From positions 1-64,000 of the IMG/VR virus record IMGVR_UViG_3300009703_000007: a stretch of 64,000 nucleotides of DNA. One strand, written 5' to 3'. Source of the DNA: a virus. The notes beneath the pieces are model-generated. The model worked only from the letters and a program-made list of their open reading frames with translations, had not been told where the DNA came from and did not search any database. A program made the translations under genes and the position numbers. Positions 4,660 through 45,375 of the stretch are shown in pieces. Position 1 is the first letter of the stretch; each line of letters begins with the position of its first letter.

Positions 4660-4667
4660 CTTATACC
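4660..4667 (-). promoter_or_regulatory. Minus-type promoter box GGTATAAG
   Basis: GGTATAAG on the minus strand, just downstream of the stop of the 4670-5443 gene and 105 nt before the ATG at 4554. It is the only copy with a long leader. It probably drives the 229-residue gene and the zinc-ribbon array. Confidence 0.55.
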
Positions 4668-6309: not shown

Positions 6310-6580
6310 ACCTTGTTTCTCCTCCATTTTCCCAAGCTCGTGACACGGCACCCAGGAAGTTTTCGTTGCGTACCTCCGCAACTATTGGTTGATCACCGTT
6401 AGGTAGTACGGCCCAGCATTTCGCTGCGCACCAGTACCCACCGGACATTTTCTTGTAGTACTCCATTTCAGCGAAGTACGCCACAGAACGAACGGCGGCA
6501 ATGCCGGCGTCGCGCTCTGCGTTGTTCTGGGCTATGAAGCCTGGTTTTGTTGTCATTGGCTTATACCATTTAATTGTCAT
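6302..6580 (-). CDS. Hypothetical protein, 84-92 aa
   Basis: ATG at 6580 has no ribosome-binding site; ATG at 6556 (MTTKPGF) lies only 3 nt after a GGTATAAG box (6560-6567). If that box is the promoter, the mRNA would be leaderless or nearly so, unlike the other cassettes with leaders near 22 nt. Contains GYWCAAKCWAVL and a C-terminal NENFLGAVSRAW segment. Function unknown. Confidence 0.6.
   Translation of the reverse strand: MTIKWYKPMTTKPGFIAQNNAERDAGIAAVRSVAYFAEMEYYKKMSGGYWCAAKCWAVLPNGDQPIVAEVRNENFLGAVSRAWENGGETRYG
6560..6567 (-). promoter_or_regulatory. GGTATAAG box at the start of the 6302 gene
   Basis: Exact GGTATAAG on the minus strand, inside the first codons if the ATG at 6580 is used, or 3 nt before the ATG at 6556. 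It supports the shorter protein but leaves almost no leader. Confidence 0.4.
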
Positions 6581-6944: not shown

Positions 6945-6952
6945 CTTATACC
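6945..6952 (-). promoter_or_regulatory. Minus-type promoter box GGTATAAG
   Basis: Exact GGTATAAG, 22 nt upstream of the ATG at 6922; the leader carries GAAGGAGGAG. It abuts the terminator stem of the preceding gene. Confidence 0.65.
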
Positions 6953-7228: not shown

Positions 7229-7236
7229 CTTATACC
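7229..7236 (-). promoter_or_regulatory. Minus-type promoter box GGTATAAG
   Basis: Exact GGTATAAG 21 nt before the ATG at 7207, followed by the GAAGGAGGT leader. Confidence 0.65.
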
Positions 7237-8376: not shown

Positions 8377-8384
8377 CTTATACC
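8377..8384 (-). promoter_or_regulatory. Minus-type promoter box GGTATAAG overlapping a stop codon
   Basis: GGTATAAG 25 nt before the ATG at 8351. The TAA inside the box is the stop codon of the 8378-8626 gene. In read-through mRNA the CCTCC just before it could pair with the GGAGG of the downstream ribosome-binding site (5-6 bp, weak). Confidence 0.6.
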
Positions 8385-9548: not shown

Positions 9549-9556
9549 CTTATACC
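9549..9556 (-). promoter_or_regulatory. Minus-type promoter box GGTATAAG
   Basis: Exact GGTATAAG 25 nt before the ATG at 9523, with leader GAATGGAGGTGCTTAGTACT, almost the same as the leader of the 8351 gene. Confidence 0.65.
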
Positions 9557-10524: not shown

Positions 10525-10532
10525 CTTATACC
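10525..10532 (-). promoter_or_regulatory. Minus-type promoter box GGTATAAG
   Basis: Exact GGTATAAG 22 nt before the ATG at 10502. Confidence 0.65.
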
Positions 10533-11196: not shown

Positions 11197-11204
11197 CTTA
11201 TACC
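11197..11204 (-). promoter_or_regulatory. Minus-type promoter box GGTATAAG
   Basis: Exact GGTATAAG 24 nt before the ATG at 11172. Confidence 0.65.
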
Positions 11205-11438: not shown

Positions 11439-11446
11439 CTTATACC
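11439..11446 (-). promoter_or_regulatory. Minus-type promoter box GGTATAAG without an obvious large gene
   Basis: Exact GGTATAAG on the minus strand just downstream of the 11459-11554 hairpin. It faces a 160-nt stretch with only a 30-codon reading frame, so it may drive a small peptide or a non-coding RNA containing the 11205-11275 structure. Confidence 0.5.
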
Positions 11447-12454: not shown

Positions 12455-12462
12455 CTTATACC
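12455..12462 (-). promoter_or_regulatory. Minus-type promoter box in a divergent intergenic region
   Basis: GGTATAAG 35 nt before the GTG at 12419. The opposite strand carries CTAATATTGG just before the 12486 start, so two promoters of different type lie back to back within 70 bp. Confidence 0.55.
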
Positions 12463-12485
12463 TCTAGTCTACCCTAATATTGGAT

Positions 12486-15152
12486 ATGCAGTTTTCAGAC
12501 TTGCTGATATCCCCTCACGAACGTCTCCTCAGAGATATGGATCAGGAGCACGGCCTCGGGTACGTAGAAGCAAAGAACAAGCTAACAGGAGCAGTAACTG
12601 GGTCAGCAATGGATGCGGCGAGAGGCACAGCAATAGCCGCAGAGCGCGCAGCGACAGGCGTGGTGGACAAAGCAAAGGCATGGCAGATGCAACGAGAGCT
12701 ACGCAAGGCCCAGGAAGCAGCAGAGGTTGCCAGGAAGCAACAGGAGATAGCTCAGCCTCAGTACGCCGCTCCTCCTAAGTTTGCAGCGTTTTGGAAAAAG
12801 GACGAGGACGACGAGGGGTTGGGTTTAGCCGGTGTAGTGTCCTCGGCAGGAGTTCTGGGTGGTTCCGCTGCCGACGCGGCCTCTGACGCCGTGCAGAGAG
12901 AGGAGCTTGAAAGCCTTCGTAGAAGAGGTAACGTCAGCCTTGCACCCTTGTTGACACAGCGCGCGTGGGAAAAAGATGGTAGAGGCCTTGAAGTAGTAGT
13001 GGACGGGGTTAAAAATCGTAACGTGGCTATGACTGGAGACACTCCAGAAGTACTTAGGGACTTTATAACCTCCCGGGGACTTCACCGATCCGGACTGAGC
13101 CCTGTAGCAGGCACAGACAGTGCTGCTCTCCGGGGCCAGGAGGCGTTTGAGCAGAGTAGAAGAATGGCCATACTGCCTGCAGTGGGAGATAGTCGCGTTG
13201 TGTCGGACACTATGGCGGACGTATCCCCTGCGGTTATTCACGCGCGTAGACATAAGCGCCCAGGGTATAGTCTGATCTCCCCCGCTCTCACTGGAGGTCT
13301 GATGGCAGGAGCGTACCTGGCACCAGAGGATCAGCACGGCCTTAAAGCTACTATGTACGGAGGGGCTGCAGCAGCGAGCGCTGCTCCAGCTATACTAGAC
13401 GCCCGAGCTGCGCTCGAGCAGTGGTACGCAAGTGACCAACACCGTAAGTGGCTCAACTCTGTGGTAAACTTAGATCTTCCTGGAGGAGTCCGGTCCCAGA
13501 CAGTGCGAAGAATAGCCGACGTAGGCAAAGTACCTCTAGGCCTGGCCGCTGCTGCGTTGCCCGCCTATATGGCGTATAAGGAATGGCAGAAGCGTGGGTC
13601 TGACGAAAAGTTCCTCTTAGCTCGGGGCCTACGTGCTATGGGTGCGGAGAACATCGCGGACTCGTATAAGACCTTCATGAAGAGCAAGGGTAGGCAGCTG
13701 TCTGAGTCAGGGTTGTTCGACCCGGTTCCCAACAAGGGTATATGGAAAGTGCTCCCCGATAAGGTGCGTGAAAGTAACTTACTACCCAAGGGCGACGTCA
13801 TGAGTGCCAAGCTCAAGGGCCTGGCCCAGGAAGACCCTGAGTCCGCTGCGATGTTCGCGGCCAGCAGCTTTTTACCAGGTCCTCAGTGGCCTGTCTACTT
13901 AGGTGCGAGAAGAGCTACCAACGTAGTGTCGGACCCTGTGGGTGACTTGGACCTGAGCTTAGCTCCCGGAGATGTCCCTGGCCTTGGAAGCAAGGTAGGC
14001 GTGGTCACGCAGTTGGATAACCCTCCATTCATATCCACAGCAGATGCGGAGCAGTCGGCGCCAGCGGCCGACCTTCTCAAGACCGAGCAAGGCCACAAGG
14101 ACCCTGCAATGGGAAATAGCTTGCCTGGGAATGGGAAACTAGCTATCGCGTGCGCGGGCGTGCGCGGGTCACTCCTAAAGGAAGCCAGAAAGTGGACCCC
14201 CGCCCAGCGCCGCCACTACTTCAAGATGCTCAAGGCTGAGGGTAAGTACAAGTCCAAGGCTCAGTATGACGAAGACAAGGCCAAGAACTACAAGGTCAAA
14301 GAAGTCCAACGCCCTCACACGTCTGAGAAGAAAGCTGAGGACGAACAGGAGTCTCCCATAGCTAGCAGGGGCAAGGACCTGGCTAAAGGCACTGCTGCTA
14401 TGTACGGATCCACTAGGCTGGTCCGACCTACGTACGAGCGAGTGTTAGGTACCAAGGGTCTGGTGCACGGCACCTCTATGGATAACGCACAAAGCATATT
14501 AAGGGAGGGCATGCGCCCAGGAGCCGGGTCTGGAAACGTCGCAGGAGAGTTGGCTGCTGGCTTTGAGGACGGATTGGACACCGATGACATATCTCGACAC
14601 AACTTTTTCGGAGGCCAGTCTGAAGGGGGCCTGTCCACTGCAGCTGGGCATGGTAACGCCTCAGAAGCTTATAGCTTACGTAATAAAGGAGTTAAGTATA
14701 CCCCAAAGCGCCCGAAGGACGTAAAGAAGCTTGAGTCCCTTACCAATAGCGCTCAAAAGTTTAGAGAAAGTCCACTGATATCTCCTGAGGTTAACCGGAT
14801 GCTGGATAAGGCTATTGACTCGTCGGGGCTGCAGGGAGAAGGTGTGCTGCTGTCCACGGTCAGGCCGTGGGAGGAGTTCTCTGCTGACTTCGAAGTCGAC
14901 CCCGAGATGCCCTCTATGTTACACGACGCACATAGAACTAAACGTACGATTCCTGCAGAGGACTTAAAGTGGGGGACGCCTACACTAAGACACCACCTGG
15001 ATGCTACAGGAGGCCCAGATCAGTGGGCACGATACGCTAAAAAATACCCGGGAAGGTTGGGTGCTGGGTTAGCGCTAGGCGCTATGGGAGCAGGGGGAGC
15101 TGCGTGGGGAGCCAGCAAGTTTAGAGACGCTGTAAGAGGCAGAGACAACTAG
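12486..15152 (+). CDS. Large virion/ejected protein with ADP-ribosyltransferase-like segment
   Basis: 888 residues from ATG at 12486 (a TTG two codons earlier is also open; neither has a clear ribosome-binding site). Residues 1-100 are helical and Ala/Gln-rich. Two Ala/Gly-rich hydrophobic segments lie near 265-310 and 345-365. Residues about 655-830 contain LVHGTSMDNAQSILREGMRP, GGLSTAAGHGNASEAYS and IPAEDLKW, the order of H-G-T, (S/T)-x-x-Y and late-acidic motifs seen in PARP/Arr-type ADP-ribosyltransferases. The C-terminus is a glycine-zipper membrane segment (855-875). A phage protein injected to modify host targets, like T4 Alt, is my inference; the fold assignment is tentative. Confidence 0.6.
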   Translation: MQFSDLLISPHERLLRDMDQEHGLGYVEAKNKLTGAVTGSAMDAARGTAIAAERAATGVVDKAKAWQMQRELRKAQEAAEVARKQQEIAQPQYAAPPKFAAFWKKDEDDEGLGLAGVVSSAGVLGGSAADAASDAVQREELESLRRRGNVSLAPLLTQRAWEKDGRGLEVVVDGVKNRNVAMTGDTPEVLRDFITSRGLHRSGLSPVAGTDSAALRGQEAFEQSRRMAILPAVGDSRVVSDTMADVSPAVIHARRHKRPGYSLISPALTGGLMAGAYLAPEDQHGLKATMYGGAAAASAAPAILDARAALEQWYASDQHRKWLNSVVNLDLPGGVRSQTVRRIADVGKVPLGLAAAALPAYMAYKEWQKRGSDEKFLLARGLRAMGAENIADSYKTFMKSKGRQLSESGLFDPVPNKGIWKVLPDKVRESNLLPKGDVMSAKLKGLAQEDPESAAMFAASSFLPGPQWPVYLGARRATNVVSDPVGDLDLSLAPGDVPGLGSKVGVVTQLDNPPFISTADAEQSAPAADLLKTEQGHKDPAMGNSLPGNGKLAIACAGVRGSLLKEARKWTPAQRRHYFKMLKAEGKYKSKAQYDEDKAKNYKVKEVQRPHTSEKKAEDEQESPIASRGKDLAKGTAAMYGSTRLVRPTYERVLGTKGLVHGTSMDNAQSILREGMRPGAGSGNVAGELAAGFEDGLDTDDISRHNFFGGQSEGGLSTAAGHGNASEAYSLRNKGVKYTPKRPKDVKKLESLTNSAQKFRESPLISPEVNRMLDKAIDSSGLQGEGVLLSTVRPWEEFSADFEVDPEMPSMLHDAHRTKRTIPAEDLKWGTPTLRHHLDATGGPDQWARYAKKYPGRLGAGLALGAMGAGGAAWGASKFRDAVRGRDN

Positions 15153-18978: not shown

Positions 18979-18986
18979 CTTATACC
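18979..18986 (-). promoter_or_regulatory. Minus-type promoter box GGTATAAG
   Basis: GGTATAAG 21 nt before the ATG at 18957. It is framed by CATCT...AGATG, a short inverted repeat over the box. Confidence 0.6.
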
Positions 18987-19033: not shown

Positions 19034-20173
19034 ATGCCGTTTAAGTCACTCGCCCAGAAAGAGAAGTTCAAGAGCCTCGTGGCCAAGGGCGACATAAGCA
19101 AAGAAACCAACGCCCGCTGGGAAGCGGAGACTGGCGATGCTAACCTGCCGTGGAGAGTGGCAGAGAAGGCCGCCTCCTTAGTGGCTGAATTCCACAACGG
19201 AGTGACGCCAGAGGACGTACACAAAGCAGCAGACAGAGCAGGGGTGCCCTGGGACAACGACAAGAAATTCATGGATCTATCTGAGAATGTGACGGGAGTG
19301 CGCCACCTAGATGACATGCGGCCCGACCAGCTGCAGAGCGTTATCTCCGCAGTGCGGTTGAAGAAAGCAGGAGCACGGATACCTCGGGTAGGCTCCAAGC
19401 ATACACATCTTCTGGATCACAATCACGCCATACCAACGCTTGGTGACGCCATCAAGCGCATAAGGCACGCGCTATCCGACAAGGACCTGTACCCCTCTAA
19501 AACCATAGACGCCATGCCGACTCCAGACACGATTGCAGAGTTGAGCGAAGAAGCGGCGGACACACTGCCCAGTGACGCTATGTCGTTGCTGGTGTCCGAC
19601 ACACTACCTGTTCCTGAGCGTATGCTAGGAGTTCCCACCCCCGTGCCCGCTATTACACGCAGAGCGGTTCCTCCCGTCAAGGTAGCTAAGGTTAAGGTAG
19701 GCCCTCCTCCCTCGCGGAATAGGAAAGAATATCCCTACCAAGGTATCATCAATTTCCAAGGGCTCCCCGAGATTCTGGTGGAGAACACCAAAGGGTCAGT
19801 CCGCTCTGGGACCGGTCCTAAAGGAAAAAAGTGGGAATCTGTGATGCCCATGCATTATGGGGAATTCCGCGGATCCAAGGGCACTGACGGCGATCCAGTC
19901 GATGTGTTCGTTGGGCCGGACGAGAAATCTCAGGTGGCGTACATAGTGCACACCAAAAAGCCCCCTACATTTAAACAGTACGATGAAGATAAAGTAGTGC
20001 TAGGGTTCAGCAGCTTAGCTGACGCTAAAGCTACTTTTGCCAAAGCGTACGACAACAAAAAGTTCTGGGGATCTGCTTCCGCCTGCAGCGTAGAAGACCT
20101 CGGGAAGATGTTGAGGAAGCGCTCAGTTCGCGGTGCTAAGCTGGACCAGAGCGTGATAAACAAGCGAGCCTAG
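19034..20173 (+). CDS. Virion-module protein with inorganic-pyrophosphatase-like (InPase) domain
   Basis: 379 residues. The N-terminal about 45 residues (SLAQKEKFKSLVAKGDISKE) resemble a segment that recurs in phage proteins. The C-terminal about 140 residues read GSVRSG, KKWESVMPMHYGEF, GTDGDPVDVFVGP and FDE-like KQYDEDKVVLGF, the order typical of the InPase domain of phage polyvalent and head-morphogenesis proteins. The middle is Pro/Val-rich linker. Preceded by CTATACTTCC and AAGAGG. Whether it has pyrophosphatase activity is not known. Confidence 0.65.
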   Translation: MPFKSLAQKEKFKSLVAKGDISKETNARWEAETGDANLPWRVAEKAASLVAEFHNGVTPEDVHKAADRAGVPWDNDKKFMDLSENVTGVRHLDDMRPDQLQSVISAVRLKKAGARIPRVGSKHTHLLDHNHAIPTLGDAIKRIRHALSDKDLYPSKTIDAMPTPDTIAELSEEAADTLPSDAMSLLVSDTLPVPERMLGVPTPVPAITRRAVPPVKVAKVKVGPPPSRNRKEYPYQGIINFQGLPEILVENTKGSVRSGTGPKGKKWESVMPMHYGEFRGSKGTDGDPVDVFVGPDEKSQVAYIVHTKKPPTFKQYDEDKVVLGFSSLADAKATFAKAYDNKKFWGSASACSVEDLGKMLRKRSVRGAKLDQSVINKRA

Positions 20174-21235: not shown

Positions 21236-21352
21236 CTAGATTCCTATACCTAAAATTATGGTGCTTAGTTGTTACTGTGTTGGATGTTCTCGCTTCACTT
21301 ACTTATACCCGAAAGGGTCTAGTGCCTTATAATAAGGAAGAGGAACAGAACC

Positions 21353-22026: not shown

Positions 22027-22066
22027 CTACGTACCTCCTTCGTATACTTATACCATAGGTACGTAG
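22027..22066 (-). promoter_or_regulatory. GGTATAAG promoter inside a 9-bp RBS-sequestering inverted repeat
   Basis: CTACGTACC (22027-22035) and GGTACGTAG (22058-22066) are perfect complements. The loop holds GGTATAAG (22047-22054, minus strand) and the Shine-Dalgarno GGAGG abuts the inner edge of the start-proximal arm. Same layout as at 17728 and 23840, but on the minus strand and with the minus-type box. Confidence 0.7.
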
Positions 22067-24674: not shown

Positions 24675-25270
24675 GCTGTATTCTCCTGCTCGTGCAATAT
24701 TCGACGTATTGATGACAAGGCCTGATCCCAGTTGTACACCAAGTCAACGTTGTCGGGGATGTGTACGCCCTGATTACCAGGGGCATTGAATAGTATCGCC
24801 TGTCTCCCCCAGGCGTCAGCCCAAGCAATAGCATTTTCGTGGTGGTCTTCTACGAGCACACGGCCGTTCACCAAAGACTTATCCTTAGCGAAGATGACGT
24901 CTTTCTCCACCAAGCAAGTGTGGGTAGCGATCCAGCGCCTACGTTCGTAGTCCCATGTCGGAGCTGTCCAAACAGGGCTGGTGAGAATCTTGACTGAGAG
25001 ACCATACGAGTTCACCAGGATATCAACTGCGTTTACTGCTCCGGGCAAAGCCCCCATACTACTGGCGAACCCGGGAGCGTCCATCGCCCTGTAGATGTCT
25101 TTGGTGGCTTCTCCGAACTGCTTGTACAGGTCAGCGTACGCCATGTCCTGGGTGTAGGGCAGTCCCATTAGGTCAGCGGTGTCGCCAAGCTGTCCTAAGA
25201 AATCACTTAGTACTCCGTCACAGTCAAGAAGAATGGGCAGCTCTGTTATGTGTTTGTTACTCATGTCCAC
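24671..25270 (-). CDS. HAD-superfamily 5'-nucleotidase-like protein (NT5C type)
   Basis: 199 residues from a GTG at 25270, or 197 from the ATG at 25264. LLDCDGVLSDF gives the HAD nucleophile/acid pair D14 and D16 (ATG numbering); ILTSPVW is motif II; KDKSLVNGRVLVEDHHENA carries the motif III Lys and motif IV acids. Family members remove phosphate from deoxynucleotides, so a nucleotide-pool role is likely. It overlaps the nucleotidyltransferase gene upstream. Confidence 0.75.
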   Translation of the reverse strand: MDMSNKHITELPILLDCDGVLSDFLGQLGDTADLMGLPYTQDMAYADLYKQFGEATKDIYRAMDAPGFASSMGALPGAVNAVDILVNSYGLSVKILTSPVWTAPTWDYERRRWIATHTCLVEKDVIFAKDKSLVNGRVLVEDHHENAIAWADAWGRQAILFNAPGNQGVHIPDNVDLVYNWDQALSSIRRILHEQENTA

Positions 25271-26276
25271 TCTCGGCGTTTGTCGCTGCGTATGCCGCTG
25301 CGTACCTATCGATTATGATTCTCATGACTTCGTCACGGTTAGGCTGGTCAGGAAGCTCAGACGCCGCAGAAGCCTCTTCTACTCTCACTACCCACTCGTC
25401 CAACTCCTCAGCAAGTTCCTCGTAAGGTACTTGACCTTTTCGTATGGAAAGGAGCCTCGACGCGTCAGGTCTAGGAAAAGTGATGTGGCCTGTTTGTAGA
25501 AGTTCAACAGTCTCAGACGACACACGTATGGCGTGCATTACCGCCTTCCAGTCGACACCGTCAGCAGAGGCCGCGGCTTGTGCACGTCTTCCGTAGCGGT
25601 CGACCAGAGGCTGCAGCGTACTGTCTATGGAGTACTGCACACCGTTGTAGAAAGGGATCTTCCTGCCACACACTGATAGCGCTGGTGCTGTGGAATACTT
25701 GTCACCATTGGTGACCACCACTGACACTAGTTCCATGTGGTCTCCGTTGGCTAACGTGTCCATTGTTCGCGGCCAGTCACCAACTTTTGACCCAGGCTTA
25801 CTCTGCTCCAGCGTCTCGAAGGCAATCAACGCCTCTTTGGCTTCGCACAGTCGTTGGGTCTTAACACTGTAACTAGGCGCTTGGGCCCGGCAGTACCCGA
25901 CCATCTTCTCCACGTTCTTGGAAATGATCAGCGGCTTCAAAACGTCGCGCAGAGGCCCCCAGGTTTCCCGGGTGCCTAAAGGTTGATCACTAAACAGGAG
26001 TTCTATCGCTACAGTTTGGCCACACAATGCAAGCTGGGCCCACTGAGCTAAAGTAAAGATCTCCAAATCAAGGATGCCTGCTGACGTGTCTATGTCAGAG
26101 AAGTTGATGGTAGGTTTTATCCGCCTGTGTACCACGTCGCCAAAGCTCTCTACATAGATCGACTTGAAGTCTAGATCGGATCCCTCTACAGCGGTTCCGT
26201 ACAAATGACTTCCGTAGGGAGACACGAGTATTGGGGCGGATCCAGCGGGTAGAAGGCGTAAAACTGAGGATAGCAT
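25257..26276 (-). CDS. Nucleotidyltransferase (Pol beta superfamily, YcgL/RlaP-like)
   Basis: 339 residues. YGSHLYGTAVEGSDLDFKSIYV (residues 21-42) contains the GS-x(8-12)-SD-x-D signature, with likely metal ligands D34 and D36; a third acid may be in ILDLEIFTLAQW. The C-terminal 200 residues are helical. The family includes predicted RNA-repair nucleotidyltransferases. Divergent with the 26303 gene across a 26-bp AT-rich gap, and upstream of the nucleotidase-like gene in one operon. Confidence 0.75.
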   Translation of the reverse strand: MLSSVLRLLPAGSAPILVSPYGSHLYGTAVEGSDLDFKSIYVESFGDVVHRRIKPTINFSDIDTSAGILDLEIFTLAQWAQLALCGQTVAIELLFSDQPLGTRETWGPLRDVLKPLIISKNVEKMVGYCRAQAPSYSVKTQRLCEAKEALIAFETLEQSKPGSKVGDWPRTMDTLANGDHMELVSVVVTNGDKYSTAPALSVCGRKIPFYNGVQYSIDSTLQPLVDRYGRRAQAAASADGVDWKAVMHAIRVSSETVELLQTGHITFPRPDASRLLSIRKGQVPYEELAEELDEWVVRVEEASAASELPDQPNRDEVMRIIIDRYAAAYAATNAESGHE

Positions 26277-26302: not shown

Positions 26303-26821
26303 ATGGTACTCACACACGTACAACTCATACGTTTGATTACACTGCCTTATACCAAAGAAGCTGCCAATTTAAGGTTAGGTACGCTCAAGGCCGTGGGAGC
26401 CGGTGCAGGCCTAGGTGCAGGCCTAGGTGCTGCTCACGCAGCTTGGAAAGGGGAGGAGCTGGGTGAAGGCGCAGCTAGAGGAGGACTACTGGGTGCGGTT
26501 GGCATGGGTGTAGGTAGGCACAACGTCAACAAAGTAATGCAGTCAGGGCTGGACAGGCGTGTACGAGACGCTGCTATTGATGTAGCTGGCGCCGGTGGGC
26601 GAAGTTTGGACAACGTTTTGTCGGCGTCTCCTCAGTACGCTACGAAAGTCACTCAGAAAGCTGTAGATAATTCCCTGGGTGGACTCATGGATCCTGCGCT
26701 GTTGGCTGCTCGTGAGGGTGCTGAGATGGGTCGTATAGGTGCAAGGAGTCGTTCCGGCGAACGTGCGTTGGCCGACTTCTTGGCCAAGAACCCGGGGGGT
26801 GTAGCCAGTCCAGCACCCTGA
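26303..26821 (+). CDS. Glycine-zipper protein, 172 aa
   Basis: ATG at 26303 follows CCCCTATAATAAAGTT with no ribosome-binding site, so initiation may be leaderless or at a later TTG. Residues about 28-75 are Gly/Ala-rich with the repeat GAGLGAGLGAA. The remainder is a charged helical domain. Same class as the 15551 and 23869 products. Confidence 0.6.
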   Translation: MVLTHVQLIRLITLPYTKEAANLRLGTLKAVGAGAGLGAGLGAAHAAWKGEELGEGAARGGLLGAVGMGVGRHNVNKVMQSGLDRRVRDAAIDVAGAGGRSLDNVLSASPQYATKVTQKAVDNSLGGLMDPALLAAREGAEMGRIGARSRSGERALADFLAKNPGGVASPAP

Positions 26822-26952: not shown

Positions 26953-27681
26953 ATGCGCACGGGCAAAATAAGAACACTGCTGTTTATACTTCTTACGGCT
27001 GTAACACTTGCTGTTATAAGCGTACCGGCCATCCCCGGCTATGTGAATATGCAGGTGGACGCAGCTACAGACTACGCCGGCCTGGTCATCAACAAGTTCA
27101 GCAGGTTGGCTAGAAGTACGGTGATGTTGCGGACAGTAGTGGCATCCCCTACCCAAGAGATGGACGACTACATAACGACGTATAGTGGTGTTATAGTCAA
27201 GAGAGAAGGCCCCGTTGCTGTGATAGCTACTGTACGACATGGCTGCACCCCAGGAGGTATGACACCCTCCTTGATTGAAATCGTTGGAGGAGGTGAGGAT
27301 CTTAAACCTACCAAAGCACTTCGAATGCGGATCGATACTAGGCCAACTCACGCTGCCGATTTTTGTCTAGTGTGGGCAGAGATCCCCGGCCCCGCCATGC
27401 CTGTTGCAAAAAATTATTCTCCGGGATTCGGAGACAGGCTGCACTCCGTAGGATCCCCTGGGGGTATTGACCGTCTGCCTGTCGAGGGGCTGATGGCGGG
27501 ATACGATCCTTTTACTGATACCTATGTCGTGTCCATACCTGTGTCTCCGGGCGCGTCAGGAGGCCCAGTTGTGCACGAAGGAAAGGTTATAGGCCTGGTC
27601 TCTAAATATTTCGTGGACGTCAATCACGGAACTCGTGTTGTTACTGCAGAGAACCTACTAGAATTCATGGAACATGACTGA
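26953..27681 (+). CDS. Membrane-anchored trypsin-like serine protease
   Basis: 242 residues. Residues 7-28 form a signal anchor. The catalytic triad is visible: H96 in ATVRHGC, D136 in AADFCLVW, S202 in SPGASGGPVV. This is the S1/DegP order with the GxSGG motif; no PDZ domain follows. It should act outside the cytoplasmic membrane. The stop overlaps the next gene by 8 nt, so it is in one operon with the RNA polymerase fragment. AGGTAGGAGA precedes the ATG. Confidence 0.75.
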   Translation: MRTGKIRTLLFILLTAVTLAVISVPAIPGYVNMQVDAATDYAGLVINKFSRLARSTVMLRTVVASPTQEMDDYITTYSGVIVKREGPVAVIATVRHGCTPGGMTPSLIEIVGGGEDLKPTKALRMRIDTRPTHAADFCLVWAEIPGPAMPVAKNYSPGFGDRLHSVGSPGGIDRLPVEGLMAGYDPFTDTYVVSIPVSPGASGGPVVHEGKVIGLVSKYFVDVNHGTRVVTAENLLEFMEHD

Positions 27682-28355: not shown

Positions 28356-30158
28356 ATGAGCGACTATCAGACATTCGGCATGTACTTAGTCAACGACATT
28401 CTTCCAGATGGTTACAAGCTGGAAGGTGAGGTGACCAAAAAGGTGCTCTTGCGAAAGATGGCCAAGCTGGCCAAAGATCGTCCCGAGGAGTACGGCTACG
28501 TTATCCAGGATATGAAGGCCCTGGGCGACAAGATTGCTACGTACGACGGAATTTCTGTTGGCCTGGAGGATATTGAGCCGGACTACGCTGCCCGTGACAA
28601 GATACTGGCTAAAGCCGACAAGGCTATAGACAAAGCTAAGTCCACGGACGAGAAGCTTGAGATCATGGTCAATGCCCAGCAGGAAGTAGGCGAGTTGGCC
28701 ATGCGCCACCCAGGTAGTATGGCTATGATGGCACGTGCTGGGGGGCGCGGAAACAAGGGACAGCTGATGAAGTCGGTGGCATCCCCCGTAATCGTGGCTG
28801 ATCAGAAGGGTAGAGGTGTACCCTACCTCATACGCAACTCCTACGCCGAAGGGTTGACGCCAGGAGAGTATTGGATTGCAGCTAACGAAGCGAGACAGAA
28901 CGTTATTACAGGACAGCTGGCCACCGCAGAGCCAGGTGCTCAGGGGAAGATCCTTACTAACCTCACGTCTGACTTAGTAATCACGGCCGATGACTGTGGT
29001 ACCACCAACGGAGTGTCCCTACCGGTCAAGTCTCCAGAGCTTGTAGACAGGTACACTGCAAATAACCGCGGCGTGAAGATAGAGTATAACACGTTGGTAA
29101 CGTCTTCGGTCCAGCAACGTCTGCTGGAGGACGGGGTTAGGCGTCTGATAGTCAGGTCCCCTATGACCTGTACTCTGCGTGAGGGTGTGTGTAAGCACTG
29201 CCAGGGTTTGGATGAGAAGGGCAACTTACATGAAGAGGGTACCAACGTAGGTATCCGAGCAGCGCACGCGCTTAGTGAGCCACTCACTCAGCTAGCCCTT
29301 AGTGCTAAGCACGGCCTACGCTTGGCTAAGAAGGACGCTGGTCCCACAGGCCTCAAAGCATTCGTGCAGTACATGGAAGCTCCTAAGACATTCCCACACA
29401 AGGCTGCTATAGCCCGGGAAGACGGTGTTGTGGGAGAGATCACCAAAGCCCCGCAGGGCGGCTACTACGTACACGTAGGTAAGTACAAAGAGTACGTACC
29501 CGTAGGACTCGACCTCCTAGTTAAGTCCGGCGACAGAGTTGAAGCGGGCGATGCACTTTCAGAGGGCATACTCTACCCGCCGGATGTTGTGGAGCATAAG
29601 GGCATAGGTGCGGGGCGTGAGTACCTGGTAAACTCTCTTCACCAGAACGTGTTCTCAGGGAACATGGACAGGCGCCACCTTGAGCTTCTAGCTAAGAAGC
29701 ACCTCAACTACGTCAAGATAGACGAGGATGCAGACGATGATGCTCACTATCTACCTGGGGAGGTGGTAGACTACAATAAGTTCAAGGAAACCATAAAGGC
29801 GAAGACGACCAAGAAGGTTGGAGCGGACATACTAGGAGACTATCTGGCTAGTGACGTACTGCACTTTACAGTGGGTACTAGAGTGACGTCTAGAGTGATC
29901 GCGGCGCTGGAGCGTAACAACGTGGATGAGGTGGATGTGGCAGACCGACCGCCCAAGTTCACAGCGGTGGTAGCGCCGATGTCCAGGGTACCACTACATA
30001 ATCCCGACTGGATGCAGAGACTAAATCACAGACTACTCAAGGATTCTTTGTTGAGAGCCGCTCACTTTGGACAGGAGTCCAGTCTGCACAGCCTCAACCC
30101 CATGCCAGCATACGCGTACGGGGCAGAGTTTGGTGTTGGCAGAGGACCAGGGTATTAA
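28356..30158 (+). CDS. RNA polymerase beta-prime C-terminal half (phage-encoded)
   Basis: 600 residues aligned by eye to E. coli beta-prime from about residue 620 to near the C-terminus. All four ligands of the second zinc site are kept: C214 (DDCGT), C272, C279 and C282 (CTLREGVCKHC), matching C814, C888, C895, C898. The bridge-helix region is ANEARQNVITGQLATAEPG. The trigger loop SEPLTQLALSAKHG keeps the catalytic His (H319 = H936) but has Leu and Ser for M932 and R933. LVNSLHQNVF and DRRHLELLAKKHL match the C-terminal clamp region. The DFDGD catalytic loop is not in this protein and must be supplied by another subunit. Confidence 0.85.
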   Translation: MSDYQTFGMYLVNDILPDGYKLEGEVTKKVLLRKMAKLAKDRPEEYGYVIQDMKALGDKIATYDGISVGLEDIEPDYAARDKILAKADKAIDKAKSTDEKLEIMVNAQQEVGELAMRHPGSMAMMARAGGRGNKGQLMKSVASPVIVADQKGRGVPYLIRNSYAEGLTPGEYWIAANEARQNVITGQLATAEPGAQGKILTNLTSDLVITADDCGTTNGVSLPVKSPELVDRYTANNRGVKIEYNTLVTSSVQQRLLEDGVRRLIVRSPMTCTLREGVCKHCQGLDEKGNLHEEGTNVGIRAAHALSEPLTQLALSAKHGLRLAKKDAGPTGLKAFVQYMEAPKTFPHKAAIAREDGVVGEITKAPQGGYYVHVGKYKEYVPVGLDLLVKSGDRVEAGDALSEGILYPPDVVEHKGIGAGREYLVNSLHQNVFSGNMDRRHLELLAKKHLNYVKIDEDADDDAHYLPGEVVDYNKFKETIKAKTTKKVGADILGDYLASDVLHFTVGTRVTSRVIAALERNNVDEVDVADRPPKFTAVVAPMSRVPLHNPDWMQRLNHRLLKDSLLRAAHFGQESSLHSLNPMPAYAYGAEFGVGRGPGY

Positions 30159-34637: not shown

Positions 34638-36719
34638 ATGCCAATGATCCCGTACACGGGTCAGTATGCCCAGACAGATACCGAGCAGGTATTTTCCCAG
34701 GCGTTCTCTGAGCAGGCTTACAGCCTTCTCGGCTCCCGTTTTCCTAACTTGTTAGAACACATCGCTACCTTCAAGGTAGTAGAGGCTGATCTGAATTCGG
34801 GTAAAGCTGTAGGCACCTTCATCCTAATACTGGGGGAAGAGGTTATTTACATCCCTGTAGTTCTGGGGGAGGGGGAAGTTCGCCCCCTCATGATGATGTA
34901 CCACAAGCGTACGGACATGTTCACCCCACTGAACAACTCTTGGATCGAGAGAACATTATCTGATTCGCAGAGGTCTATTGGTGATCCTGCTCTTCAGCCC
35001 GCCACGCTCAACCACGATATAAGTCTCCGTAACCTAGTCCGCCCGCCCAACCTCGTAGGTCGGTTCGCGTACGCGTCAGACCAGTCGTACGCTCTGAAGG
35101 CGCTGGATGAGAGCCCTTCTCAGGTGAAGGAAGCCTTTGCTGAGGTGCTAAAGGGCCATCACGATGTATTAGAGCACGTACTGAATGTGTACGATTTTGA
35201 GCAGGTCAAGGACGCGCTACGAAAGGAAGCTACCAAGGTGGCTGTTTCCCCCCTCCCCGAGGAGGTAGTAGTGTTCGAGGGAGACCCCAAGGAAGTCAAC
35301 GCTACACAGTTCAAAGAGATGTTCGGAAAGCAGTCCCCACGAGCATTCGAGGCGCTGGTTACGCGCGGGGTAGCAGTGTCGGATAGTCGCCCCGAGGGAT
35401 CGCATAACAGCCTTGCTCGCTTAGACGTGAGCGGTAATTTCGAAGAGATCAAAGATCCCGGCGTATATGAGGTTCTCTTTGCTGACGGAGAGTCCAAAGT
35501 CTGCTTCGCTTTCCGGGGCCACGAAGATGTGCGAAGTTCTGACCCACCCGTAGGTGAGCTGGAGTCCCCTGGTGAGCGGGGCGGAAGTTCCCACCGACAC
35601 CCCGGCGTTCTGATAGTTACAGGAGACGCTACGCTTCACCGCGTTCGTAATGCGCTGGGCCGTCCCTTGCAGCCAGAAGCTTTGAAGGGTAGTAAGATCT
35701 ACGACGTTTTGTACGGCGGAAAGAAGTCCAAGCCCAGCCCTACTCATAAGGGGTTCTTTGTACACTGCAAGGATAACGGACGTTGGGCTATAACACCTCA
35801 GGTTACTATCAGGTCAGTACGCAACGAAGGTAAGGTCGTACATTATCGCGGTTACATGCCGGGAGCTCCGCACGCACACCTTGTGGTGGATCCCTCAGTG
35901 CCCGTTCAAGTGCCTAAGTACCTAGCTAGACGGTCCATGACGTATCTTCCTCCCAACGCTCAGTTTCTGCGCGTGGATGAGGTCAAGTACCTGGAAGACG
36001 CAGTCATCGAAGCTCCAGACATGTTGGCTATGATACTGGCGTCTAGAGTAAGAAGTAGAGGTGCGCGAGACCTTAAGATACAGTCAGTCGGTGAGAAGTC
36101 TTACTCCTTGGACGGCCGTCCTACGATGACCAAGGGTGCTGCCGTCAAGATGTTGATGGTTGACTACGGCCTAGGAGAGTCCGCCACATTCTCTGCTCTC
36201 AAGGAAGCGGACGAGCACAAGATTGTTCGGGCATTTGTGATACCTTCTGGTCTTGACACCAAGACTGCAGCGTTCGGGCAGCCAGAGCAAGGTCAAGACC
36301 CTTATGCTCAGCAGATGCAAGGTCAAGACCCTTATGCTCAGCAGATGCAGCAGCAGCCGGAAGTTCCTATGAGCATGGGAGACGATGTCACCATCGACCC
36401 GGAACTGATGCAGCAGGTAGCGCAGGCGCAGATGATGGATCCAGCGGTGCTGGACGCTGCTGTGATCGTGTCTCTGGCAAGAGTACCGGAGCTCCGAGAG
36501 TTGATCCTCGGCTACCTCCCCAACCTAAAGCAGGGTTTGGATAACTTCGGCAGGATACTCTTAGCGGTCTGGATACACCAAGACTCGGTGCGGGAGCAGG
36601 TTGGTGACAGCGCCTTCTCTAGTCTGGAAGATACTCTTATAACTACGTTTAAGTCCGTAGGTGACACAATTCTGCGCCTTAGCGACGGCACAGACATATT
36701 CGACGATACCAAGGAATAG
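34638..36719 (+). CDS. Large virion structural protein, 693 aa
   Basis: Not recognised by family. The N-terminal 150 residues are alpha/beta (GTFILILGEEVIYIPVVLGEG), the middle has KGFFVHCKDNGRWAITPQV, and a Gln-rich linker near 548-575 carries a perfect duplicated decapeptide QGQDPYAQQM. The C-terminal 120 residues are helical. Size and place before the protease would suit a portal-sized or internal core protein, but portal motifs are not evident. Confidence 0.6.
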   Translation: MPMIPYTGQYAQTDTEQVFSQAFSEQAYSLLGSRFPNLLEHIATFKVVEADLNSGKAVGTFILILGEEVIYIPVVLGEGEVRPLMMMYHKRTDMFTPLNNSWIERTLSDSQRSIGDPALQPATLNHDISLRNLVRPPNLVGRFAYASDQSYALKALDESPSQVKEAFAEVLKGHHDVLEHVLNVYDFEQVKDALRKEATKVAVSPLPEEVVVFEGDPKEVNATQFKEMFGKQSPRAFEALVTRGVAVSDSRPEGSHNSLARLDVSGNFEEIKDPGVYEVLFADGESKVCFAFRGHEDVRSSDPPVGELESPGERGGSSHRHPGVLIVTGDATLHRVRNALGRPLQPEALKGSKIYDVLYGGKKSKPSPTHKGFFVHCKDNGRWAITPQVTIRSVRNEGKVVHYRGYMPGAPHAHLVVDPSVPVQVPKYLARRSMTYLPPNAQFLRVDEVKYLEDAVIEAPDMLAMILASRVRSRGARDLKIQSVGEKSYSLDGRPTMTKGAAVKMLMVDYGLGESATFSALKEADEHKIVRAFVIPSGLDTKTAAFGQPEQGQDPYAQQMQGQDPYAQQMQQQPEVPMSMGDDVTIDPELMQQVAQAQMMDPAVLDAAVIVSLARVPELRELILGYLPNLKQGLDNFGRILLAVWIHQDSVREQVGDSAFSSLEDTLITTFKSVGDTILRLSDGTDIFDDTKE
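36291..36350. repeat. Two tandem 30-bp repeats
   Basis: The unit CAAGGTCAAGACCCTTATGC-CTCAGCAGATG-type sequence occurs twice in direct tandem within the 34638 gene, encoding the duplicated Gln-rich decapeptide. Confidence 0.75.
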
Positions 36720-40142: not shown

Positions 40143-41936
40143 TTGTATAAGCACATCCAACTGGACGCGGTCGACCCTGTGACGCTGGAGCCTAGAGCTA
40201 GTGTCATTGACTCGTCGTACCTTGGGTCTGTGAAAACCGCGGCGCCGATACGCGAGTTTATACTCGAGCTGACTCCTCAACCCGGAAAAACTCTTCTACA
40301 CGTAATCGCTCTAGGGTCGTACGAGTACTACGGGCCCAATCGCAATAAAGATGCGTTTGCTGAGCACCACCACGGGCCTGAGGCAGAGCTCAACCTGCCC
40401 GCCTGTGCGGTGGACCCTTCCTACGGGGGCCTGCTAGATCAATTCAAGGGTATGAAGATATACGAAGACCAGAAAGTCTTCGAGACCTTCCGTGACGCTC
40501 ACGCCTTCCAACACCACAAGAACAAGGACCCTAACAAGAGGATTGGAGATGTCCTAGAGGCGTTTTACAACCCAGAGATGCACCGAGTCGAGTTGGTCAT
40601 CAGCCTGGACCACGACAGGTGTCCTCCCAAATATATCAACCGTATCGACGACGGGTCCATGCTGGCGTTCTCTATGGGCTGTCACATAAAGTTCGATGTG
40701 TGTTCGGTTTGTGGGAATAAAGCACCTACCAGAGCTGACTACTGCAACCACGCCAAGAGGATGCACCAGCCTGGACATGAGTTCGATGAGACAGGTCGAC
40801 CTGTCTGCGTGTTCAACCCAAACGCCAGGTTCTTCGATATATCCATAGTGTTCCGCCCTGCCGACCGCATCGGCTACATGCTTAAGAAAATAGCGTCCGA
40901 AGACGTGTCCTCAGCGGAAGCAGGTGAAGACATCCTCAGCTACAACTACAAGCGTGCCCTAGCGGATAAGCTGGGTGACATGGATAAGCGCATTGCAGGA
41001 CACGTAGAAGGTGTTGAAGAGCTGCCTGCCCACATGGAAGTAGCACTAAAAGCTATACCTCCTATGCCTGAGCATGACATTGACTTGGATGCTCTTTCCT
41101 CACACTCCTTTGCTGACGTAGTTAAGACGTCTTCCAACCTCGGAGTTATGTTCAGCTCCTCGGAGATCGCTGTCCTTTTAGCCCACAAGTGGCACGGAGG
41201 CTTCGAATCCGGGGACGTAAAGTTAGCGTCTAAGTACGCCGCTACCGCGCTGGCTGCACTACGTGATAGCCCCGATGCTGTGGACGAGATCATAGACTCT
41301 GGACTATTCGACGGTAGACACCAGCATAAGATAGCCGAGGAACTTTCTGCATTGAAGGAGCTACGAGGGTGTGCTAGAGAGGATTTGCTCAAGCAGGCCT
41401 TCCTAGGTGGCCACAAATCATTACTGGGCACGGAAGATCTTGGCTGGAGAAAGAATGCCCCTGCTAGTACTGACCGCATCGAAGTTCGCGGCCCCAACGG
41501 TGAGATGAAAGTCACAAACCGAAGCGCTATAACCTCCGCCCAAAATGACCAAAGACTCAAGTCAATGGCGAAAGCGTTGGCGGCAGGTTTACTTGTTGGT
41601 GGGTCGTATCGTATGCTAGCGGGTACTGGAGGCTTAGGAGCGGGAGCTCTTGGTGCGGGAGGGTCTGCGGCGTTGGATTGGGCTGGTAGTAATCGAGTAC
41701 TGCCGTTCGGTGACCATGAGAGGTCCAGTGACGGCACTGTCTCCAAAGAGACCTTGTTGTTCAAACAAGGTGAGGAACTTAAAGTGATTAAGACGAGTAT
41801 GCTGGAGCATATGCACGGTGGATCAGTGGAATCTGTGGATCTAGACGTGGCCGACGGCAGCTTTAACAAACTTTCTGAAGTTTTGAGCAGTTACGTGTTG
41901 AGGGACCTCCTTGACGACGTTGACAAGATGCGCTAA
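40143..41936 (+). CDS. Prohead protease with long C-terminal extension
   Basis: 597 residues from a TTG at 40143 (no ATG precedes the conserved part). Residues 30-250 carry the fold of phage prohead proteases: SYEYYGPNRNKDAF, HAFQHHKNKDPNKRIGDV (catalytic His region), VELVISLDHDR and DGSMLAFSMGCHIKFD (catalytic Ser). A CSVCG...YCNHAKRMH knuckle likely binds zinc. The C-terminal 340 residues are extra: a helical segment, then a Gly-rich hydrophobic stretch (about 475-510). Expected to process capsid and core proteins during maturation. Precedes scaffold-like and capsid genes. Confidence 0.75.
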   Translation: MYKHIQLDAVDPVTLEPRASVIDSSYLGSVKTAAPIREFILELTPQPGKTLLHVIALGSYEYYGPNRNKDAFAEHHHGPEAELNLPACAVDPSYGGLLDQFKGMKIYEDQKVFETFRDAHAFQHHKNKDPNKRIGDVLEAFYNPEMHRVELVISLDHDRCPPKYINRIDDGSMLAFSMGCHIKFDVCSVCGNKAPTRADYCNHAKRMHQPGHEFDETGRPVCVFNPNARFFDISIVFRPADRIGYMLKKIASEDVSSAEAGEDILSYNYKRALADKLGDMDKRIAGHVEGVEELPAHMEVALKAIPPMPEHDIDLDALSSHSFADVVKTSSNLGVMFSSSEIAVLLAHKWHGGFESGDVKLASKYAATALAALRDSPDAVDEIIDSGLFDGRHQHKIAEELSALKELRGCAREDLLKQAFLGGHKSLLGTEDLGWRKNAPASTDRIEVRGPNGEMKVTNRSAITSAQNDQRLKSMAKALAAGLLVGGSYRMLAGTGGLGAGALGAGGSAALDWAGSNRVLPFGDHERSSDGTVSKETLLFKQGEELKVIKTSMLEHMHGGSVESVDLDVADGSFNKLSEVLSSYVLRDLLDDVDKMR

Positions 41937-44457: not shown

Positions 44458-45375
44458 ATGAAGACCGAACTTTACAACGTCGACTCACAGGCCATCAACC
44501 GTGCGTTCGTACAGAAGATTGAGTCTGGACGAGTCAAGGAGGCGGCTGATGAGTTCAGCCTCTTCGTCCGCGCGAAGATGCGAGAAGAGGAGATCGTTCA
44601 GTCGATCCTCTCACCGATGCTCGTCACTGAGGATCAGCTCGATCGGGACGTAAACACGGATGAGCCCAAGGTCATCGTCGAGAAGGAAATCGACTCGGTA
44701 GCGACCTACGTACCCTTCAAGGGTTCCGGGCGTAACCGATGGTACACGGGCGACCGCTTCGAAGTGTTCTTCGGAAAGGTCGAGTCGGAGCGATTCAGCA
44801 AGTCTAAGTTCCAGCTTATGACTTACCGCCACGACATCCGTAAGCTCCTGGCTGACAACAGCGTGTTTGATATTGGCGATCAGGTCGACACTAAGTTCTT
44901 CGGACTTTGTGGCGATATCATGACCGCTAACCCGACGCAGGATCTTAGCCCCACCGGTGGATTCACACCTACAAACATCAAGTTGATGATGCAGAACATG
45001 CTCAATCGCAAGATTCCGATGGGATGCTTCGTGATGACCAAGTCACTCTACGCGGAGACGCTAGACTGGCCGGCCACCACGATCTCTGACGAGATTGCGA
45101 AGGAGAAGTTCCGCAACGGTATCGACGACAGCCTTTCGCTGTTCGGCGTACCTGTGAAGACTACGATCAAGAACGATATCGTTCCTACAAACGAAGCCTG
45201 GCTATTCGGCCCAGCGGGACAGGGCGATTCTCGTAACTACCTTGGTCACTACTTCTACCTGCAGGAGCCCACGCTCTTCATCAAGCAGGAAGCGGACATC
45301 ATCACGTTCTGGACGTACAGCGCGCCCGGTATCGGACTTTCGGGTACGAGTGCCGTAACGCGAGCCACGTTCTAA
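44458..45375 (+). CDS. Major capsid protein (HK97 fold)
   Basis: 305 residues. Features of this fold: helical N-terminal arm (1-60), ATYVPFKGSGRNRWYTGDRFEVFFGKVES (E-loop region), a long spine helix (TNIKLMMQNMLNRK), and a P-domain with AWLFGPAGQGDSRNYLGHYFYLQEPT. Codon use is noticeably more biased towards CGA/CTC/TCC endings than in neighbours, as expected for the most abundant product. Followed by a hairpin at 45386. Confidence 0.85.
   Translation: MKTELYNVDSQAINRAFVQKIESGRVKEAADEFSLFVRAKMREEEIVQSILSPMLVTEDQLDRDVNTDEPKVIVEKEIDSVATYVPFKGSGRNRWYTGDRFEVFFGKVESERFSKSKFQLMTYRHDIRKLLADNSVFDIGDQVDTKFFGLCGDIMTANPTQDLSPTGGFTPTNIKLMMQNMLNRKIPMGCFVMTKSLYAETLDWPATTISDEIAKEKFRNGIDDSLSLFGVPVKTTIKNDIVPTNEAWLFGPAGQGDSRNYLGHYFYLQEPTLFIKQEADIITFWTYSAPGIGLSGTSAVTRATF

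Follow-up and report, generated by a model that had tools for sequence, protein, structure and literature searches.

The open reading frame at 28356-30158 of a 64,000-nucleotide stretch of viral DNA (the window, positions 1-64000 in a virus record of 158,120 bases) raises the question of whether a phage that encodes part of the beta-prime subunit next to its structural genes possesses an RNA polymerase of its own, and whether this enzyme travels in the virion. A sequence-only reading of the locus had inferred the first and asked about the second, recalling that phiKZ- and AR9-type phages use split multisubunit polymerases.

28356..30158, plus strand: beta-prime C-terminal subunit, 600 aa, identified by profiles, PDB matches, residue alignment and an AlphaFold model

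The frame is intact from ATG to stop, and its product matches Pfam RNA_pol_Rpb1_5 (E 4e-15), NCBIfam rpoC (E 4.5e-57) and RpoC chains in the PDB (E about 1e-40). In an alignment to Salmonella RpoC, in which E. coli numbering holds at the compared sites, the zinc-binding cysteines C214, C272, C279 and C282 correspond to C814, C888, C895 and C898, and in the trigger loop H319 corresponds to H936, with L315 and S316 at the positions of M932 and R933; every one of these equivalences had been given exactly by the sequence-only reading. Residue 1 falls at RpoC 568 and residue 600 at 1365, so that the protein extends from the post-barrel region to the conserved C-terminus and the break lies, as had been claimed, within beta-prime and C-terminal to the DFDGD loop (458-464). 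Beta-prime is split after the DPBB domain, the catalytic loop residing on the other piece. The SI3 insertion is missing, and the bridge helix, trigger loop, four zinc cysteines and C-terminal anchor are present. In the AlphaFold model (pLDDT 86.5), which matches bacterial beta-prime at E about 1e-29 over more than 600 aligned columns, the bridge helix spans 169-204 (36 residues) and two trigger helices flank a disordered tip at 321-327. The gene product is the C-terminal half of beta-prime, part of a cell-type RNA polymerase encoded by the phage itself.

Homology to bacterial beta-prime is also compatible with a recently captured, functionless fragment of host rpoC, a reading left with practically no probability. 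Recent capture is refuted by the AU test, which rejects the grouping of the window gene with bacteria (p-AU 7e-5); the closest related sequences, at 42-46% identity, come from phages; no substitution occurs at the four cysteines or the trigger-loop histidine in the 36 relatives aligned; and a full-length partner with intact catalytic residues is encoded in the same record. This partner emerged when the remainder of the record was examined piece by piece beyond the window, bearing out the earlier proposal of a phage-owned split polymerase; the other subunit pieces, whose absence would have spoken against that proposal, exist.

Record 120670-122406 (outside the window), plus strand: portal
Record 125659-131058 (outside the window), plus strand: fusion of beta and beta-prime-N with a putative intein, 1799 aa, collinear with Arash gp206

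The 1799-residue frame consists of the whole of beta, as one unsplit stretch, joined to the N-terminal part of beta-prime, and is 33-38% identical to gp206 of the cultured phage Arash. Its catalytic positions are filled (beta K787 and K1136; Asp triad D1710/D1712/D1714), the catalytic loop reading NLDYDGD in place of the usual NADFDGD, with NADYDGD present in some relatives. Together with the trigger-loop histidine and zinc cysteines of the window protein, all residues that define an active multisubunit-type RNA polymerase are accounted for. A model of the second half of the fusion (pLDDT 83.9) corresponds to beta-prime-N and matches RpoC and RpoC1 structures in the PDB at E about 1e-30. Missing from the fusion is the zinc-binding domain of beta-prime (C70-C88), and searches of the record revealed neither a paralogue of this region nor an alpha subunit (PF01000). 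In the Arash group, a second short virion protein (L127 7425-8105, equivalent to Arash gp7; G007:36695-36898; others) matches the beta-prime zinc-binding stretch only (DCHT...CACTSKGGVCRKC); it gives the impression that a structural protein has acquired a copy of this domain of the polymerase. The window phage lacks this second protein.

The fusion is further marked by an in-frame insert of about 344 residues between GDKC and SNRYGGKG. Its ends are intein-like (Cys first; Asn then Ser last), and the site is empty in most relatives, where the sequence is GDKLSNRYGGKG or GDKVCNRYGGKG, and filled in two, L048 and L050. As Pfam and NCBIfam intein models yielded no convincing match to the insert, its assignment as a putative intein rests on the empty sites and the termini. 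LAGLIDADG-like stretches occur within it (L006 8023-9057, record 128023-129057); the inserts of L048 and L050 are homologous and lie at the same point, other relatives show other insert positions, and the Vibrio phages D148 and D181 carry a homing endonuclease gene inside the same gene region.

The same record also contains two sigma-family genes.

Record 64403-65230 (outside the window), plus strand: divergent sigma, orthologue of Arash gp10 at 33-34% identity
Record 113180-114040 (outside the window), plus strand: second, canonical sigma with regions 2 and 4, corresponding to Arash gp196

In the divergent factor, Sigma70_r3 alone passes the Pfam cut-off (E 2.6e-6), preceded by region-2-like similarity, and region 4 was not detected by profiles. 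A profile built from this protein and Arash gp10 recognises a partner in all four large single-chain relatives described below and, among 29 large polymerase-carrying relatives, in 27; both records without a match are shorter, at 131-134 kb. The same profile matched none of seven phages with other multisubunit-type polymerases, AR9, phiR1-37, YerA41 and Carin-5 among them; six of the seven also lack Pfam sigma region 2, and in Carin-5 a gene annotated as sigma adjoins the polymerase. The association of a polymerase with a dedicated sigma seems to be new within the literature searched.

The history of this core was approached through its relatives. Used alone as query against viral contigs, the window protein returned no relative, and alignments were required; alignment-based scans of IMG/VR gave 38 beta-prime-C loci and, from 132 candidates, 79 retained fusion loci. 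Hits in a scan of genome contigs were for the most part polymerases of bacteria and archaea; one contig (L146) is probably from a phage, and no clue to the host emerged. In dozens of IMG/VR loci this fusion precedes a separately encoded beta-prime-C of about 600 aa, and at nearly all loci showing both genes the fusion (about 1450-1550 aa minus inserts) is separate from it; in a subgroup one more cut yields three pieces, of about 1130, 390 and 610 aa. Moreover, a second scan, seeded with the odd member L045, recovered about 20 phage loci in which a single open reading frame, 2060-2340 aa when complete, carries all of beta and beta-prime. Among these single-chain polymerases, the beta-prime zinc cysteines are gone from L246/L247 and L248; in L247 the motif NADFDGD is replaced by NADNDGD, and L248 looks like a frameshifted single chain.

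In a core tree rooted on bacteria, a quick tree with long branches, the phage enzymes form one clade (SH-aLRT 100) in which single-chain lineages branch first; the post-barrel cut falls on a single later branch (97), inside which a third piece arises once (97). Because the single-chain lineages branch first and the cut comes later, the simplest history is a fusion of beta and beta-prime followed by re-splitting, which the tree suggests as support rather than as proof. No prior report of a fusion of beta with beta-prime-N was found in the literature searched, subscription papers being outside its scope, and the fusion as likely ancestral form, with single-chain kin, seems to be new there. Single-chain, two-piece and three-piece versions within one lineage constitute a natural series for the breaks that a polymerase tolerates, and bear on the question of whether shared break sites mean shared descent.

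The relation to phiKZ- and AR9-type phages, which the sequence-only reading had named as users of split polymerases, can be judged against this background. Their polymerases are likewise phage-encoded, split and of multisubunit type, have no alpha, and have beta-prime broken after the catalytic barrel (PMC7598289); in addition, the window protein shows weak similarity to AR9 gp154 (30% over 222 aa). However, those phages have two enzymes each, whose core pieces number at least five (virion) or four (non-virion), and their beta is split and unfused to beta-prime, whereas the core here consists of two pieces with beta unsplit and fused to beta-prime-N. Sigma-70-family factors are absent from phiKZ/AR9 phages (PMC7824862), in contrast to the two sigma-family genes found here. 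AR9 and phiR1-37 occupy a separate long branch of unsure position, and the single-chain relatives suggest that the break arose inside the lineage of the window phage. A reduced jumbo-phage polymerase of this kind is very improbable, and on sequence comparison the window enzyme is not of phiKZ/AR9 type. As a fused ancestor appears to have given rise to the post-barrel cut here, the data suggest convergence with both the phiKZ/AR9 phages and the cyanobacterial split. The shared cut site has been used to propose a cyanobacterial ancestry of the phiKZ/AR9 enzymes (PMC7598289), and convergence, if true, would undercut that argument from the site.

Phages with multisubunit-type polymerases are already known from phiKZ, AR9 and mReC (PMC7598289, PMC7481178). 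The mReC phages are metagenomic tailed phages whose beta and beta-prime branch outside the cellular enzymes; compared by description, they carry NADxDGD, a PF07068 capsid and a PF03237 terminase, in contrast to NLDYDGD, no PF07068 match for the major capsid protein and a PF05876 terminase here. The window enzyme lies outside bacteria in trees built without the published mReC sequences. In the crAss-like polymerase a single chain contains the catalytic portions of both beta and beta-prime, as in the single-chain sister phages, yet this polymerase and YonO are so divergent that ordinary profiles miss them (cited in PMC7481178), whereas the enzymes described here, compared with these two by description, align full length to bacterial beta and beta-prime.

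The closest known counterpart is Arash, whose gp206, gp216 and sigma gp10 reproduce the two-piece core, the break point and the sigma orthologue, together with the GGTATAAG box discussed below and the same gene blocks (portal-fusion and beta-prime-C - gp218 - gp219 - capsid), at 31-38% protein identity. Arash differs in that the intein is absent, a helicase gene adjoins gp216 and the core genes are 4.8 kb apart, against record positions of 28-30 kb and 126-131 kb here. With beta fused to beta-prime-N, a separate post-barrel beta-prime-C and a gp10 orthologue in the genome, the window system is of the same kind as the Arash virion polymerase: fused, apparently re-split, and equipped with a sigma of its own and a recognisable box. 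In the Arash paper gp206 bears the plain name 'beta', and neither a fusion nor a promoter nor single-chain kin is reported (PMC10585845). The plus-strand neighbours of beta-prime-C in the window, which the sequence-only reading had taken for virion genes, are indeed orthologues of Arash proteins, of which gp218, gp222 and the major capsid protein are virion proteins.

34638..36719, plus strand: Arash gp218 orthologue; virion protein, 1149 spectra in Arash (PMC10585845)
36722..37405, plus strand: Arash gp219 orthologue, next in the conserved block beta-prime-C - gp218 - gp219 - capsid
40143..41936, plus strand: Arash gp222 orthologue, resembling head maturation protease families
44458..45375, plus strand: major capsid protein, 39% identical to Arash gp226

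Whether the polymerase is packaged can be addressed indirectly through Arash, for which the virion location of polymerase and sigma is already known (PMC10585845), as it is for the virion polymerase of phiKZ/AR9 type (PMC7598289). In LC-MS of Arash particles, gp206 tops all proteins with 3516 spectra and 128 unique peptides; gp216 has 1210 spectra and sigma gp10 has 467, against 1333 and 877 for capsid protein and portal, respectively, and gp196 is not listed in the virion table (PMC10585845). By our own calculation, this corresponds to 2.3, 2.0 and 2.0 spectra per residue for gp206, gp216 and gp10, and to 4.3 and 1.5 for capsid and portal, the near-equal values implying similar amounts of the three proteins. 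The same preparation yielded peptides of ribonucleotide reductase and DNA primase, which are likely cytosolic enzymes, and of RNA ligase, and the authors offer carry-over as an alternative (PMC10585845), so that the virion data support packaging without proving it. The polymerase could then be a late-made, non-virion enzyme, an abundant complex of the cytosol present in Arash particles by carry-over, with host polymerase reading the early genes; a separate non-virion enzyme does exist in phiKZ/AR9 phages (PMC7598289). We consider this rather unlikely, as gp206 is the most detected particle protein, the three proteins reach the portal and capsid range per residue, and in both phages the fusion gene comes after the portal gene and the beta-prime-C gene stands ahead of the gp218-gp219-capsid block. 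Against a late non-virion enzyme, moreover, stands the single beta-prime-C found in the record, which may be incomplete and in whose 158 kb no terminal repeats were found. Packaging of the polymerase pieces in the virion of the window phage is thereby supported indirectly. As polymerase and sigma occur in the particle of a cultured relative, this virus of bacteria can probably begin reading its genes without the host enzyme.

A candidate promoter for such an enzyme came from an unbiased k-mer scan of intergenic DNA in the record, which led to CTTATACC/GGTATAAG. All 24 copies of GGTATAAG in the record lie on the minus strand; the structural genes are on the other strand, where the box is absent, and about 2.4 copies would be expected (Poisson 2e-16). 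It is the top strand-biased octamer of the record and, independently, of Arash (30/1). Copies in the window are:

4660..4667, minus strand: putative promoter box GGTATAAG
6560..6567, minus strand: putative promoter box GGTATAAG
6945..6952, minus strand: putative promoter box GGTATAAG, start codon 22 nt downstream
7229..7236, minus strand: putative promoter box GGTATAAG
8377..8384, minus strand: putative promoter box GGTATAAG, start codon 25 nt downstream
9549..9556, minus strand: putative promoter box GGTATAAG, start codon 25 nt downstream
10525..10532, minus strand: putative promoter box GGTATAAG, start codon 22 nt downstream
11197..11204, minus strand: putative promoter box GGTATAAG, start codon 24 nt downstream
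11439..11446, minus strand: putative promoter box GGTATAAG
12455..12462, minus strand: putative promoter box GGTATAAG
18979..18986, minus strand: putative promoter box GGTATAAG, start codon 21 nt downstream
21302..21309, minus strand: putative promoter box GGTATAAG
22047..22054, minus strand: putative promoter box GGTATAAG, start codon 21 nt downstream
26346..26353, minus strand: putative promoter box GGTATAAG

A purine stands 6-7 nt downstream of the box, at one fixed spacing in each phage and mostly after T, in 24/24 cases here and in 30/30 in Arash, where the spacing is one base longer. A start codon follows seven of the boxes at a distance of 21-25 nt, and 8 of the 24 have no obvious gene start close downstream, by a loose criterion met by 42% of random minus-strand positions. 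Upstream of the box, the search for a -35 element found no conserved column. In ten Arash-group relatives the box is present in 22-34 copies, and in each of them it occupies the strand that does not carry the polymerase genes; variant boxes take its place in Vibrio phage D69 (TGTTATAAG, 13 to 0) and in G020 (TGGTATAGG, 8 to 1). Searches in the relatives G021 and G002 gave no clear motif and several other relatives hold just 2-9 biased copies, so the box is not universal among polymerase carriers. The exact GGTATAAGNNNNTGA pattern proved too strict for the relatives, and the octamer alone was used. We found no report of GGTATAAG as a phage promoter in the literature searched, which excluded subscription papers, and the conserved box seems to be new.

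The boxes of the record, Arash, D69 and G020 are extended -10 elements (TGnTATAAG type), and the phage encodes a second, canonical sigma. GGTATAAG might consequently be a promoter of the host RNA polymerase, used with a host sigma or with this second factor, the phage polymerase serving other, perhaps late, genes through another signal. This reading has a real claim to consideration, and yet we find it doubtful. Host sigma-70 requires T at the last -10 position, and because the last base of the box is G, the dedicated sigma is the likelier reader. Furthermore, single-mismatch variants, GGTATAAT included, are near background, unlike host promoters; the identical octamer is kept among phages with about 33% protein identity; and six phages with other polymerases show no strand-biased enrichment of it. 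Co-occurrence, architecture and conservation together lead us to infer that the phage polymerase and the divergent sigma read GGTATAAG.

The explanation that we consider likely is a two-polypeptide phage core with its own sigma, packed in the virion and reading the opposite strand from boxes without a -35 element. The core, lacking alpha and the beta-prime zinc-binding domain, would have arisen, by the tree, through cutting of an already fused beta-beta-prime chain. The intein would have to splice out of the fusion to restore the beta active-site motif GDK..RYGGKG, after which the fusion and beta-prime-C would assemble on each other and the assembled core would bind the divergent sigma. The holoenzyme, packed in the virion by analogy with the relative Arash, in which alone the virion location is shown, would be carried into the cell alongside the DNA, where it would transcribe the opposite-strand gene set from the GGTATAAG extended -10 boxes, presumably early in infection. 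Speaking against this explanation are the second, more canonical sigma, the NLDYDGD form of the catalytic loop and the L/S pair in place of trigger-loop M932/R933.

Reviews describe two strategies among large phages, a polymerase without sigma or a sigma without polymerase (PMC7598289, PMC7824862), and the Arash-type group combines both, one cultured member having both in its virions. The broader proposition, that a large tailed-phage group packs a complete host-independent holoenzyme, composed of a fused-then-recut core and a dedicated sigma-70-family factor, for early transcription from a strict -35-less GGTATAAG box kept across highly diverged members, seems to us evenly balanced. With the box, the sigma and a cultured model (Arash on Salmonella) at hand, promoter recognition and virion packaging are directly testable.

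Several further features accompany these genes. The word TTTTTAG(C) is biased towards the strand that carries the box in Arash (CTTTTTAG, 17 to 0), G020 (TTTTTTAG, 30 to 5) and D69, and more weakly in the window phage (TTTTAGCT); it is possibly a terminator. Arash intergenic DNA (L127-L130) contains a repeat around GGTTACAACGTTTG in 5-8 copies on both strands, a possible operator or other signal. In the window, the 890-aa frame at 12480-15152 (+) has no match in Pfam or PHROG, and 25257-26276 (-) encodes an RlaP-type nucleotidyltransferase (Pfam PF10127, 2.6e-7; PHROG nucleotidyltransferase, 4e-60). Two genes upstream of beta-prime-C, 26953-27681 (+) carries a trypsin-like serine protease domain (PF13365, 6e-8). 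The C-terminal stretch of about 120 residues of 19034-20173 (+) matches PHROG 37402, 4660 and 10089 and is common to DarB-like, endolysin and other large virion proteins, as a recurrent mobile domain.
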